This document shows positions 41,395-47,591 of a stretch of DNA of 64,000 nucleotides, one piece after another. Made by a program: the position numbers and the translations under genes. The number at the start of each line of letters is the position of its first letter. The first letter of the stretch is position 1. The notes beneath the pieces are model-generated. The model saw nothing but the letters and a program-made list of their open reading frames with translations, had not been told where the DNA came from and ran no database searches. The stretch comes from Salegentibacter salegens (lineage in GTDB: Bacteria > Bacteroidota > Bacteroidia > Flavobacteriales > Flavobacteriaceae): positions 2,170,001-2,234,000 of the forward strand of contig NZ_LT670848.1 in NCBI RefSeq assembly GCF_900142975.1, in the 5' to 3' direction.

Positions 41395-41440
41395 CAGCCT
41401 TATTAATAATCGGGGTCGGGAACCCCACAAATTAATTTTT

Positions 41441-42986: not shown

Positions 42987-43554
42987 CTAAACCACTCTGC
43001 ACTCCAAGTGCAGAGGTTTTTTTACTAGGGACTGAAAGTCCCCAAGCTATTCCAATATGAAATTGGAATTATCATTCGTGTCTCGACGATGATGTTCCAA
43101 ATATTCATTAACCATCTCATCGGTGATATTTCCTGTACTCCTAACTCCATAACCACTTGCCCAAAAATGTTGTCCCCAATACCGCTCCTTCAGTTTGGGA
43201 AATTCTTGTTGAAGTTTTCTGGAAGTTCTACCTTTTAACTTCTTTAAGATGGTGCTTACATTTAGTTTCGGAGCATATTCAATATGCATGTGGACATGAT
43301 CAGAACTAACGACTCCTTTTAATATTTCTATTCCCTCTGCTTCACAGATTTGGATTAAAACATCTCGACAACGCACTTGTATATCACCGCGAAGAACTTT
43401 GTATCGATATTTGGTCACCCAAACAACATGACAAGTCAAATGACTAACAGTATGAGAACCTTTTCGCTGATAACTCATGGTCCGAAAATATGGATTTTTT
43501 CGCAATACTAAAGTTCTGCAATAAAATTGCAGGGTTTAAATCCCTATTTTGAGA
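42987..43554 (-). mobile_element. IS200/IS605-family element (568 bp)
   Basis: The ends are set by the frame-perfect junction of the interrupted GIY-YIG gene. It encodes only a Y1 transposase, with no tnpB. Both ends carry the subterminal hairpins expected of this family: CTCTGCACT...AGTGCAGAG and GGGACT...AGTCCC near the right end (42993-43040), and CTGCAA...TTGCAG with GGGTTTAAATCCC near the left end (43515-43545). No target duplication is made, as the family predicts. On the coding strand the left end follows ATTGG. Confidence 0.85.
43047..43478 (-). CDS. tnpA: IS200/IS605-family Y1 transposase TnpA
   Basis: With the start MSYQRKGSHTVSHLTCHVVW the protein has 143 residues; an earlier Met at 43505 would add nine residues of unlike composition. 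The HUH metal-binding motif is HVHMHIEYAP near residue 62, and the catalytic Tyr is in the ASGYGVRSTGNIT region or the following helix (EMVNEYLEHH). The enzyme cuts and rejoins single-stranded DNA at hairpin ends. The frame is intact, so the element could still move. The other gene of IS605 elements, tnpB, is absent. Confidence 0.92.
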   Translation of the reverse strand: MSYQRKGSHTVSHLTCHVVWVTKYRYKVLRGDIQVRCRDVLIQICEAEGIEILKGVVSSDHVHMHIEYAPKLNVSTILKKLKGRTSRKLQQEFPKLKERYWGQHFWASGYGVRSTGNITDEMVNEYLEHHRRDTNDNSNFILE

Positions 43555-43710
43555 CCAATAAACCAGTTTATCACAATTGTACTTCGTCGCAAACCCTTTA
43601 TTTATTTTATTCTTATGCTCATACATTCTTTTCTGAAGGTTGGAAGTAACTCCGGTATAAAGAACCGTATTGTTTTTGCTGGTAATTATATACACCCAAG
43701 AAGCTTTCAT
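43555..43710 (-). pseudogene. GIY-YIG nuclease gene, 5' part (split by IS200-type element)
   Basis: The first 52 codons read MKASWVYIITSKNNTVLYTG, then VTSNLQKRMYEHK and finish KYNCDKLVYW. They contain the VYII...LYTG core and the catalytic Arg of GIY-YIG nucleases. A reading frame continues past W52 into the insertion element for 36 more codons to a stop at 43444, but that tail is IS DNA. The original gene would have been 98 codons. A truncated product without the conserved Glu is unlikely to be active. Confidence 0.88.
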
Positions 43711-44087
43711 TTTATAAAATTAGAAACCTGCTGTAGTTAAAGAAATAAGGGATTTTACGCTTTTCTGATTGAGATTGCTTCAGTTGCAAAAAAGCAACTT
43801 CGCAATGACGTTTGCGCAAGAAGTATTCGTCATTGCGAGGAAGGCCATAGCCTGACGTGGCAATCTATTCTATTTGAACCAGACCAACCTGAAAGCCACC
43901 ATTGCCTTCAATTCAAAAAATTGCTTAAGCCATAAAAAATGGCTACGCAATGACTCTGAAGTTAGTTTTCCGTCATTTCGAGCGACGAAGAAGTGCGGCA
44001 ATCTGTTCTTAGTTTTTGCGATATTTTTCTGAAAGAGATTACTTCAGTTGCAAAAAAAAGCAGTTTCACAATGACGCTATTTAAAAC
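43711..44087. repeat. Cluster of palindromic intergenic repeats (right of the GIY-YIG locus)
   Basis: At least four repeat units follow one another. 43771-43809 (GATTGCTTCAGTTGC... CGCAATGACG) is nearly identical to 42688-42725. 43831-43875 reads GTCATTGCGAGG... TGGCAATCT. Decayed units lie near 43920-43950 and 43973-44003, and another at 44036-44077. No gene is visible in the gap. Confidence 0.75.
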
Positions 44088-44156: not shown

Positions 44157-47100
44157 CTAACCTACAATATTTACAATTTTTCCCGGCACTACAATCACTT
44201 TTTTAGGTGCGCGACCATCTAATTGTTTCTGAGTTCGTTCATCTGCCATCACGGTTTTTTCGATTTCTTCTTTTGCCATATCCAACGGAAGTTCCATTGT
44301 AAATCGCATTTTCCCGTTGAAAGAAACCGGGTAATTTTTTGTGCTTTCTACCAGGTATTTTTCTTCAAAAACCGGATATTCAGCGGTTACTACAGATTCT
44401 GAATTTCCAAGTTTACTCCATAACTCTTCTGAAATATGCGGCGCGTAAGGCGCCAGTAAAATAACAAGTGGCTCCAACACTTCCCTGCTATTGCATTTTT
44501 GTACTGAAAGCTCATTTACACATATCATAAAGGTGGAAACCGAAGTATTAAAACTGAATTCTTCGATATCTTCAGTAACCTTTTTAATGGTTTTATGCAG
44601 ACTTTTTAAAGAATCTGCTGAAGCTTTTTCATCTGAAACTTCAAACTGCTCGCCGTTGTGATATAGCTTCCAAAGCTTTTTGAGGAAATTATGCACGCCG
44701 GTAATTCCTGCGGTATTCCAGGGTTTAGCCTGCTCTAATGGCCCAAGGAACATCTCGTACATCCTTAAAGTATCAGCGCCATAGTCTTCACAAATATCAT
44801 CGGGATTTACCACGTTATCCTTAGATTTTGACATTTTTTCAACCTCCATTCTACATATTAATTCTTCATCTGTAAAAAATTGGGCGAAAATAAACCTGGA
44901 ATGTTCTTTTAACTTCTCTTTTATTATTGAATAATTTTTAGGATCTACACAGCTATATGGAATTCTCTTTTCTGGTTGATATGAGTATCCGTTTACAACA
45001 ACCTCTATTTTTTCATCGATTATCTTTTCCTTGTCTTTTACTTGACTATAATTCTCAATAATTTGTTCTTTAACATTTGAGCAAATTTCACTATCATTTA
45101 CAATTTCATCAGAATCTTGAAAAACTGTAATATTTAATGTGGTTTCCGCCACAGACTCTCTAATATGCGGAATCTCATCCCACTTTTCAGTTAATTTTGA
45201 TTTAACGGTTAAAGTATAATCATACGCAGGATGGAACATGCTTTCTCCCAAAATCATTCCCTGATTGATCAACTTCTTAAAAGGTTCTTCTACCGAAAGA
45301 TATCCGCGGTCTCGTAAAAACTTTGTCCAGAATCGGGAATACAATAAATGACCGGTGGCGTGTTCACTTCCGCCTATATAGAGATCTACATTTTCCCAGT
45401 AGTTTTGAGCTTCTTTAGATACAAATTCTTCACTATTTCCAGAGTCCATATAACGGAAAAGATACCAGGAACTCCCGGCCCAACCGGGCATCGTGTTTAA
45501 TTCCAAAGAAAACACGGTTTTATTATCGATCTTATCATTGGAAACAACTTCATTTTTTTCGGCATCCCAGGCCCAATCGGTAGCATTTCCTAACGGTGGT
45601 TCGCCTGTTTCGGTTGGTAGGTATTTTTCAACCTCGGGAAGATGCAAAGGCAAATGCTGCGCATCTATCATTTGCGGCATTCCGTTTACGTAATACACCG
45701 GGAATGGCTCTCCCCAATAACGCTGGCGACTAAATACCGCATCGCGCAAACGATAATTTGTTTTCCCGTAACCGTGACCGGTTTTTTCCAATTCTAAAAT
45801 CACTTTTTGAAGTGCTTCTTTGTATTCGAGTCCGCTAAGGAAATCAGAATTTGCGATTACCGTTCCTTCTTTTCCGGAGAACGCAGTTTCAGAAATATCA
45901 GTGTTTTCAAAAATATTTTTAATTGGTATATCAAAATGTCTGGCAAAATCATAGTCCCGCTGGTCTCCGCAAGGCACGGCCATTACGGCTCCGGTTCCGT
46001 AACCTGCAAGCACATAATCCCCAATCCAGATAGGTATTGACTCCCCTGTAAAAGGATGCTCGGCATAAGCGCCGGTAAAAACCCCGGTAATACTTTTCAC
46101 ATCGGCCATACGTTCGCGCTCACTGCGTTTTGCACTGGCAGCGATATAGGCTTCAATTTCTTCTTTTTGTTGAGGCGTGGTTATCTTTTTAACCAATTCG
46201 TGTTCTGGAGCCAAAGTCATAAAAGTCACTCCAAAAACAGTATCGGGTCTGGTGGTGAAAACCCAGATCCCCCCATCCCCCGAAGGGGGAGCTTTTTGAT
46301 CCTGATCATTCGAAATATTAGGTTGCTCCCGAAGAGAAGTCTCAATCCTTTCTAAAACTTGATCAATATCTCCAATAACCTCTTCATTTCTAAACCTAAT
46401 AACCTTAAATCCTTTGCTTTCCAGAATTTTTGTTCGGTTTTCATCCTGTTCAACCTGTTGATCGTGAATGTCTCCATCTACTTCAATCACCAGTCTTTTC
46501 GATAAACAAACAAAATCAACTATAAAGTCATCTATTAGATGTTGCTGACGGAATTTGAAGCCTAAATTCTTATTTCTCAAATAATTCCAAAGCGCTTTTT
46601 CAGCATCTGTAGGATTATTTCTGTTTTCCCTTGCCTTTTCAAGAAGTAAATAAGCATTGTTTCCTCCGGTCATATATCCCGGCGTTGCTTTCTCTTCCCC
46701 TTTGGGGAAGGATAGGATGGGGAATTTCACCATTGCCCCAACCGATTTCCCGATCCAGTTACGCTGACTTTCCTTTAAACTTTCGGTCCAGTCCAGTTGA
46801 TCTAAACCTTGTAATAAACGTTCTGAAAATGCCGAAATTCGCATACTCCATTGCGTCATTTTTTTGCGAACTACGGGATAGCCACCACGTTCGGAAACGC
46901 CGTTTACAATCTCGTCGTTAGCTAAAACGGTTCCCAGTTGCGGGCACCAGTTTACTTCGGTTTCAGCTAAATATGTAAGTCTGTATTTTAGTAATATTTG
47001 TTGTTTTTCTTCTGAAGAAAAAGCTTTCCAGGCATCAGCTGAAAATTCCTCTACCTCATCATCACAGGCCGCATTTAAACGAGAGTTCCCTTCCGCAGCA

Positions 47101-47591
47101 AAAATCTCTTCAAGCTCAGAAATATCTCTTGATTTTTCAGCTTCCATATCGTACCAACTTTCAAAAAGCTGAATAAAGATCCACTGTGTCCACTTATAAT
47201 ATTCGGGATCGCTGGTGCGCACTTCCCTACTCCAATCGAATGAAAAGCCTATTTTATCCAGCTGCTCGCGATATCTTTTAATATTCTTAGCCGTGGTAAG
47301 CGCAGGATGTTGCCCGGTTTGAATTGCATATTGCTCGGCAGGCAGACCGAAACTATCGTAACCCTGCGGATGCAGCACATTAAACCCTGAGTGGCGCTTG
47401 TACCGTGCATAAATATCACTGGCAATATAACCAAGCGGGTGCCCAACGTGAAGCCCGGCGCCCGATGGATATGGAAACATATCCAACACATAATATTTAG
47501 GTTTATCGGATGAATTGCTGGCGCGAAAAGTTTGATTTTCGGCCCAGTATTTTTGCCATTTGGCTTCAATTTCGTTGAAGTTGTAACTCAT
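44157..47591 (-). CDS. leuS: Leucyl-tRNA synthetase with an in-frame DUF559 nuclease-domain insertion
   Basis: LeuRS charges tRNA-Leu. Class I signatures are intact: HVGH at 48-51 in PSGAGLHVGHPLGY, and KMSKS near 919. The editing domain resumes at WVFTTRPDTVFGVTF (443 onward), with YGTGAVMAVPCGDQRDYDFA near 531-550. The protein has 1144 residues against about 930 in relatives. Most of the excess is a 151-residue block (about 291-441) that splits the entry of the editing domain and encodes a complete DUF559 domain. A second divergent region (about 785-910), ahead of KMSKS, is some 60 residues longer than I expect. Both leave the frame open, so a full-length chain is predicted. Whether editing works is unknown. 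Confidence 0.93.
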   Translation of the reverse strand: MSYNFNEIEAKWQKYWAENQTFRASNSSDKPKYYVLDMFPYPSGAGLHVGHPLGYIASDIYARYKRHSGFNVLHPQGYDSFGLPAEQYAIQTGQHPALTTAKNIKRYREQLDKIGFSFDWSREVRTSDPEYYKWTQWIFIQLFESWYDMEAEKSRDISELEEIFAAEGNSRLNAACDDEVEEFSADAWKAFSSEEKQQILLKYRLTYLAETEVNWCPQLGTVLANDEIVNGVSERGGYPVVRKKMTQWSMRISAFSERLLQGLDQLDWTESLKESQRNWIGKSVGAMVKFPILSFPKGEEKATPGYMTGGNNAYLLLEKARENRNNPTDAEKALWNYLRNKNLGFKFRQQHLIDDFIVDFVCLSKRLVIEVDGDIHDQQVEQDENRTKILESKGFKVIRFRNEEVIGDIDQVLERIETSLREQPNISNDQDQKAPPSGDGGIWVFTTRPDTVFGVTFMTLAPEHELVKKITTPQQKEEIEAYIAASAKRSERERMADVKSITGVFTGAYAEHPFTGESIPIWIGDYVLAGYGTGAVMAVPCGDQRDYDFARHFDIPIKNIFENTDISETAFSGKEGTVIANSDFLSGLEYKEALQKVILELEKTGHGYGKTNYRLRDAVFSRQRYWGEPFPVYYVNGMPQMIDAQHLPLHLPEVEKYLPTETGEPPLGNATDWAWDAEKNEVVSNDKIDNKTVFSLELNTMPGWAGSSWYLFRYMDSGNSEEFVSKEAQNYWENVDLYIGGSEHATGHLLYSRFWTKFLRDRGYLSVEEPFKKLINQGMILGESMFHPAYDYTLTVKSKLTEKWDEIPHIRESVAETTLNITVFQDSDEIVNDSEICSNVKEQIIENYSQVKDKEKIIDEKIEVVVNGYSYQPEKRIPYSCVDPKNYSIIKEKLKEHSRFIFAQFFTDEELICRMEVEKMSKSKDNVVNPDDICEDYGADTLRMYEMFLGPLEQAKPWNTAGITGVHNFLKKLWKLYHNGEQFEVSDEKASADSLKSLHKTIKKVTEDIEEFSFNTSVSTFMICVNELSVQKCNSREVLEPLVILLAPYAPHISEELWSKLGNSESVVTAEYPVFEEKYLVESTKNYPVSFNGKMRFTMELPLDMAKEEIEKTVMADERTQKQLDGRAPKKVIVVPGKIVNIVG
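46269..46721 (-). mobile_element. DUF559 (Vsr-like endonuclease) insertion inside leuS
   Basis: A 453-bp, exactly 151-codon block lies between LeuRS residues 290 and 442. Its ends are inverted GC-rich repeats: on the leuS strand it starts CCCATCC...TTCCCCAAAGGGGAA and ends CCCCCTTCGGGGGATGGGG, each also holding a local hairpin. Inside, residues 326-417 form a DUF559 domain: NNPTDAEKALWNYLRNK, KFRQQHLIDDFIVDF (D359), RLVIEVDGDIHD (E370, D372), and GFKVIRFRNEEVI. The acidic residues are those of the restriction-like fold. The insert begins as free-standing DUF559 proteins do, so a whole gene seems to have been carried in. Confidence 0.8.

Follow-up and report, generated by a model that had tools for sequence, protein, structure and literature searches.

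The window analysed here is a DNA stretch of 64,000 nucleotides whose complementary strand carries leuS at 44157-47591 as one open frame of 1144 aa, a leucyl-tRNA synthetase (LeuRS) with an embedded nuclease. The insert comprises aa 291-441, i.e. 151 codons at 46269-46721, the same coordinates as in the first-pass annotation, which had reported an in-frame DUF559 module here. Judged by its GC-rich ends, the element runs from 46269 to 46722 (454 nt). In the Pfam scan DUF559 (PF04480) lies at aa 318-420 (E 1.8e-35; 121.5 bits against a gathering score of 20.6) and the editing-domain match starts after it, at aa 441; also, all 34 rows of the block alignment (A3) score above the DUF559 gathering score. 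On comparison with PDB 1h3n, a Thermus LeuRS, residues 205-292 correspond to chain positions 148-236 and residues 442-789 to 243-586, and six residues of 1h3n (237-242) occupy the place of 149 residues in the window LeuRS. The full-length LeuRS model is weak (pLDDT 73) and was used only for the strands and the low-confidence linkers around the block. As leuS gives a single match in its own genome (G000) at E<=1e-50, the LeuRS works with the block inside unless something removes it. The features, in gene order, are as follows.

44157..47591, minus strand: leuS with embedded nuclease (ORF, Pfam and NCBIfam scans)
46723..46760, minus strand: LeuRS segment directly before the element, NWIGKSVGAMVKF (allele comparison)
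46269..46722, minus strand: in-frame element, end to end (ends read; compared with empty alleles)
46694..46722, minus strand: 5′ end of the element in gene orientation, CCCCATCCTATCCTTCCCCAAAGGGGAAG, with a hairpin at 46694-46710; encodes PILSFPKGE
46641..46693, minus strand: N-terminal extension typical of the in-frame subtype, here PGYMTGGNNAYLLLEKA, elsewhere YxTADxxxYxLLKExA (block comparison)
46332..46640, minus strand: DUF559 nuclease core, aa 318-420, with D359, E370, D372 and H376 (Pfam, alignments)
46269..46292, minus strand: 3′ end in gene orientation, the inverted counterpart, with a hairpin at 46277-46289; encodes APPSGDGG
46230..46268, minus strand: LeuRS segment directly after the element, IWVFTTRPDTVFG (allele comparison)

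Just downstream of leuS, at 43047-43710, overlapping frames were recognised by eye as IS200-type transposase-like and GIY-YIG-like; repeat-like stretches such as cgtcattgcgaggaaggcc and its variants lie at 43800-44080, and an S16-Flavobacteria ribosomal protein leader (Rfam RF03138) at 41402-41436. The gene also has a second variable place: the 110-residue segment before KMSKS (aa 787-897; 44901-45233, minus strand) is unlike that of most congeners, and odd, mutually different segments stand there in the LeuRS of G002, G003, G011 and P0005.

Hairpin ends and nuclease core

In the in-frame blocks the host sequence is followed by a Pro/Gly/Ser-rich hairpin linker, the extension, the DUF559 core, a second linker and again the host, the extension resembling YxTADxxxYxLLKExAxxxRxxPTEAE. 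The ends of the LeuRS element (CCCCCCATCCCCCGAAGGGGGAGC and CCCCATCCTATCCTTCCCCAAAGGGGAAG) are mutually inverted, each with its own hairpin; the inverted arms are 39 nt long and 72% complementary, extending slightly into the host, and when the two ends are translated in all frames, 11 of the 12 readings contain no stop codon. The GC-rich inverted ends with internal hairpins that had been claimed for this element are borne out, the end motif having 15 matches in the own genome (<=3 mismatches) against 0 for the reversed pattern. We scored hairpins at the ends of 35 distinct in-frame elements from fetched loci and in 138 control windows in host genes. At a score of 12 or more there were 18 left and 20 right ends, both in 13 elements, against 4 of the 138 controls; a score of 11 or more gave 20 left and 22 right ends (controls 8 of 138), and 13 or more gave 9 and 9 (controls 1 of 138). 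Strong hairpins are thus a property of roughly half of the copies, those of the remainder being weak or worn. End-type hairpins also occur alone: in the own genome they lie inside or at the start of open frames (L002, L003, L010, L015), including glycosyltransferase-like and HemW-like ones (names by eye), and leuS of G004 (L021/L046) has, besides its block, a solo hairpin-type in-frame insertion near KMSKS, ADSSPSGRPGGA. These solo hairpins may be remains or short mobile units.

The residues D359, E370, D372 and H376 are present and invariant in a 38-row alignment of LeuRS, in agreement with the earlier statement that the acidic residues of the domain are intact, and of 381 distinct in-frame blocks 377 retain all four core residues (D, E, D, H). 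Among the nine metH blocks of the genus, three have a substituted catalytic acid (E to A in G005; D to E in G002 and G009). When 34 blocks are combined into a profile, it finds PDB 3hrl (E 2.3e-29) and 3r3p, entitled 'Mobile intron protein' (E 1.4e-7), and the block model (pLDDT 76.7) gives 3hrl at Foldseek rank 1, 3r3p at 2-3 and 1vsr at 5. The match of the model to the catalytic domain of I-Bth0305I has a Foldseek probability of 1.00 and a TMt of 0.79, E. coli Vsr is matched also, and the PADLOC 'homing endonuclease' profile matches the block with E 1.1e-6. On profile and predicted fold, a relationship of the block nuclease to a homing endonuclease is supported, and with it the Vsr-like, homing-type affinity suggested earlier. 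On profile comparison (100% probability, 37% identity) free-standing DUF559 proteins and the in-frame blocks are one family; the free-standing copies are without the YxTADxxxYxLLK extension, and a Met immediately precedes the core in 23 of 28.

Host genes and distribution

DUF559 was found at E<=1e-8 in 112 of the 299 genomes sampled from the source's family. Among the 150 matches listed, 46 are within open frames at least 340 aa long, so in this family the domain is often not free-standing, against the normally free-standing state named in the first-pass annotation. Of these 46, nine are free-standing-type DUF559 running into HemD, a read-through without a stop (L054, L064, L066, L072, L082-L085, L090). 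Protein searches with the blocks of LeuRS, HisD and IleRS, each in its own length range, gave 1107, 213 and 1193 proteins respectively, the best 120 of each being listed; they detect coding copies only, and broken copies are thus uncountable there. By precomputed Pfam accession the block is present in at least 28 host families among the best 120 per search, nearly all of Bacteroidota, about eleven of these families resting on one protein each. Named by their accessions, the families are LeuRS, IleRS, ValRS, MetRS, MetH, RecG, PurL, HisD, TsaB/TsaD type, guanylate kinase, urocanase, WecB, CinA, IspG, IspF, chorismate synthase, methylmalonyl-CoA mutase, IcmF/MeaB, GH31, glycosyltransferase, DegT, CoA transferase, LplA/BPL, M23 peptidase, Lhr-type helicase, DNA2/UvrD-type helicase, HemD and a PF14667/PF01370 protein. 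Further hosts, identified by eye from the flanks, are RecJ, acetyl-CoA synthetase and type I restriction subunits.

By the cut-offs applied here, the block is internal in 311 of 355 proteins (354 listed and 1 translated locus), near the N-terminus in 25 and near the C-terminus in 19, and two or three blocks are present in 28 of 429 proteins and locus frames, one gene being counted twice. In LeuRS, IleRS and ValRS the blocks stand at a matching place of the editing domain, before TTRPDT, TTTPWT and TTRPET respectively (flanks by eye). Across the phylum sample, the block profile has matches at E<=1e-20 in 118 of 296 genomes; this profile also catches free-standing copies, and many of the listed matches are in short frames. 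When the best 80 loci in named genomes are considered, the block is in a frame of 300 aa or more in 67, and 78 have Bacteroidota names (one name checked); the others are metagenome-assembled genomes named Candidatus Marithrix (Gammaproteobacteria) and Candidatus Paceibacterota. A general habit of small nuclease genes was rejected as an explanation, the GIY-YIG and 23S IVP matches listed for 80 family genomes being mostly without such embedding: the long GIY-YIG frames are about 600 aa, the size of UvrC, except for one of 874 aa (G067:C4:563301-563519), and no 23S IVP match listed is in a frame above 164 aa.

Filled alleles, empty alleles and exchange

Three places with DUF559 were found by family search in the own genome, i.e. 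leuS, MetH and a broken copy. The second is an in-frame block inside a 1046-aa MetH (C1:582812-583132), so a second genomic copy with ends like those of leuS does exist, its ends being of the same build though worn. The broken copy lies between hairpins and between two genes (G000:C1:126861-127176; two matches; L018 1262-1789).

Among the 15 genomes searched in the genus, leuS was found in 14 and contains the block in only 2, the own genome and G004. Fixation in all relatives, named beforehand as the outcome that would speak against a mobile element, is therefore not what we find. The 12 block-free genes have a loop of 8 residues (NVQDSDDK type) in 6 cases and of 22 residues (NLYGETLKKVKDDGSLSEHQKR type) in the other 6. 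These loop residues, 8 or 22, are absent from the filled leuS, which therefore did not arise by a simple insertion; the comparison of relatives that had been proposed thus yielded uninterrupted alleles but left the exact empty site undefined. For metH, also found in 14 of the 15 genomes, 9 genes are filled (G000, G002, G004, G005, G007, G008, G009, G012, G014) and 5 are empty (G001, G003, G006, G010, G011), giving uninterrupted alleles for this gene as well. The segment between two fixed motifs is always 540 nt in filled and always 135 nt in empty metH, and the filled genes are without about 6 loop residues of the empty ones, so that a clean insertion is seen in neither leuS nor metH. By eye, the ends of the MetH block are worn in G000, G005, G009 and G014. 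In all filled congeners seen, the block continues the reading frame of its host, both in leuS and in metH. In trees built from the metH flanks, filled G007 is paired with empty G001 (support 0.948 and 1.000) and filled G004 with empty G006 (0.998 and 0.884). The gene trees of the genus are mutually discordant.

Between G004 and the window the LeuRS hosts are 97% identical and the blocks 79%, while for P0003 the values are 84% and 86%. In the G000-G004 pair the block has dN 0.160 and dS 0.99 against dN of 0.011 and 0.023 and dS of 0.40 and 0.59 for the two host flanks; a different codon bias could explain part of the excess of block dS over host dS. An AU test with 39 blocks chosen from 145 at the LeuRS site rejected a clade formed by the G000 block and the G004 block (p-AU 0.0055), the sister relation of the two hosts having a support of only 0.879 in a reticulated genus. 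Blocks have also been exchanged between sites. The HutU block of P0237 is closer to a block from IleRS (73% identity) than to that of the other HutU (45%), and in PurL P0018 two blocks are 89% identical and accompanied by a third, short block without a nuclease. Short in-frame stretches resembling both linkers without the nuclease were noted in PurL P0018 (aa 83-119) and in a ValRS (L289). On one contig of G228 two MetH blocks resemble each other over the stretch between and including AGCCCCCC and GGGGGGGGCT (418 bp in each, 345 of 418 identical) and have imperfect inverted ends of 26-27 bp that stop where the homology stops. As proteins they are 86% identical to each other, their nearest same-site relatives being at 58% and 76%. 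Their synonymous distance is 1.8 (dS), so the copying was not recent or was followed by conversion.

In a FastTree tree of 410 distinct blocks (of 457) the 41 labels, one of them being the free-standing copies, need 65 changes, against a minimum of 40 and a shuffled mean of 266; the blocks are thus mostly faithful to their site and sometimes jump. Across LeuRS, block identity to the window copy correlates with host identity (Pearson 0.75, n=135), which indicates that much of the inheritance is vertical. Over 802 columns including the block, which lies at the same loop, the LeuRS from Paceibacterota (L216) has 37% identity to the window LeuRS. The 12 best BLAST matches of this Paceibacterota block are all LeuRS-site blocks; its placement with LeuRS blocks in the tree has no support (11/0), the nearest row by path being a RecG block. 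The distribution is site-faithful, patchy and partly horizontal, as for a homing element, and a vertical signal is also present.

Interpretation and comparison with known systems

We consider, with a probability of roughly 0.6, that the leuS block is a copy of a non-splicing, in-frame, homing-type family of mobile nucleases whose hairpin ends also encode Pro/Gly/Ser linkers. The filled/empty polymorphism in the genus and the second copy in MetH support the earlier reading as a mobile in-frame nuclease element. We infer homing by cutting of empty alleles, permanent residence in the enzyme and locking of the frame by the host. The element would be a Vsr-like (DUF559) nuclease without a stop codon between short inverted GC-rich hairpins, presumably translated as a lasting domain of the host enzyme by way of the linkers that the hairpins encode. 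Homing in bacteria requires two alleles in one cell. The predicted nuclease would cut incoming DNA that carries a block-free allele of the same gene, and the block would be copied in when the break is repaired on the filled allele as template. A frameshift or nonsense mutation in the nuclease would break the essential enzyme too, so the element would be locked in and an intein or intron would be unneeded. Rare jumps to new genes would use the hairpin ends.

The same hairpin ends may be explained in another way, by a hairpin-ended transposon whose ends would be the mobile part, moved by an enzyme in trans, with DUF559 as cargo or helper and no homing enzyme. Of the 15 end-motif places in the own genome only leuS coincides with DUF559, the short block in PurL P0018 is nuclease-less, hairpins are present at free-standing DUF559 genes (left side 14 of 20, right side 14 of 20, both sides 10 of 20, with no separate control for these), and terminal inverted repeats, a transposon criterion, are found both at the window element and, imperfectly over 26-27 bp, as matching ends of the MetH block pair. 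We nevertheless regard this explanation as doubtful: by eye the 15 bases flanking the two MetH sites on each side show no target-site duplication, a clean empty site being absent there, the blocks are largely faithful to a single site in a single gene (65 label changes, compared with 266 on shuffling) and the nuclease core is so widely kept (377 of 381). The block-host identity correlation (0.75, n=135), the purifying selection on the block (dN/dS about 0.16 for G000-G004) and the occurrence of 145 of the 457 blocks at one LeuRS loop would suit old domain fusions used by the hosts, either for regulation or for defence with the nuclease watching a core enzyme, and inherited vertically with occasional loss. 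Yet the 28 host families by Pfam accession, the difference in presence among near congeners, the rejection of the G000 and G004 LeuRS blocks as sisters, and blocks such as that of HutU P0237, nearer to those of other hosts than to those of their own, make it improbable, and a fixed old domain as the whole story was rejected on the genus comparison together with the clade test.

It is very improbable that the block is removed after transcription or translation as an intron or intein of an unrecognised kind or by translational bypass. Homing nucleases in conserved genes usually accompany self-splicing elements, according to a review (PMC3943268), yet the Pfam and NCBIfam scans of LeuRS gave no intein or other splicing domain, Rfam gave no intron family, group I or II, at the gathering threshold, and block and host share one frame in all filled leuS and metH of the genus; an intein or intron of known type was rejected on these grounds. 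An artefact of assembly or annotation, or chance, can hardly be the cause, the same block being found in many genomes and databases. Two further candidates were rejected. For a defence system, the block had no PADLOC match beyond the homing endonuclease profile and a weak one to a restriction profile. For a phage vehicle, the closest of 60 viral-contig loci with a relative is L289 (51% identity), a ValRS gene with the block and therefore probably chromosomal sequence; among the viral-contig loci with a profile match 5 of 59 have that match in a frame of 300 aa or more, L289 alone having been read.

If the homing-type reading is true, homing elements colonise conserved genes without splicing, and stop-poor hairpins read as flexible linkers suffice for this, whereas according to the review homing nucleases are free to invade highly conserved genes through their association with self-splicing sequences (PMC3943268). 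A nuclease of that kind is present here in essential enzymes from 28 host families (counted by Pfam accession), no splicing element having been detected, and the blocks are often filed under the name of the host enzyme itself. Among titles and abstract openings of the open-access literature, a scope with subscription papers and preprints mostly outside it, we found no description of DUF559 blocks inside enzymes. If the fusion is real, the blocks mark, as a list made by nature, the loops at which aminoacyl-tRNA synthetases, MetH, RecG and other enzymes tolerate a folded domain of 100-150 residues, and they are also a source of compact nucleases whose sites may be readable from the host genes. 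We see an even chance that they constitute a separate class of mobile DNA, namely hairpin-ended homing-type nucleases in frame in loops of essential enzymes as a permanent domain, with the frame kept open by the need of the host.

Among known systems, REP repeats with RAYT enzymes are dispersed hairpin repeats, and dispersed hairpins are likewise seen here (the own genome has the end motif at 15 places and DUF559 at 3), but with a Vsr-like nuclease instead of a transposase and with insertion inside genes. Rickettsia palindromic elements are short palindromic DNA in frame in protein genes, as here, except that the present palindromes are the ends of a nuclease-coding element. Inteins with a homing endonuclease stand in frame in conserved enzymes, at more than one site per host gene and with presence/absence polymorphism. 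The blocks have all three properties but are without a splicing domain. Free-standing DUF559 proteins (PRK09767/NF007294), among them VsrA of Caulobacter (PMC12907096), have the same domain, whereas the in-frame blocks also carry the YxTADxxxYxLLK extension. With respect to the EDxHD or Vsr-like homing endonucleases (I-Bth0305I, PDB 3r3p), the blocks differ in having no detected intron or intein, in using the frame of the host enzyme and in their hairpin ends; also the extended DNA-binding region of I-Bth0305I, as described in PMC3943268, is not seen in the blocks beyond a short N-terminal extension. The likeness to this type lies in the catalytic domain, by profile and fold, and in the location in conserved genes with a site-faithful and patchy distribution.
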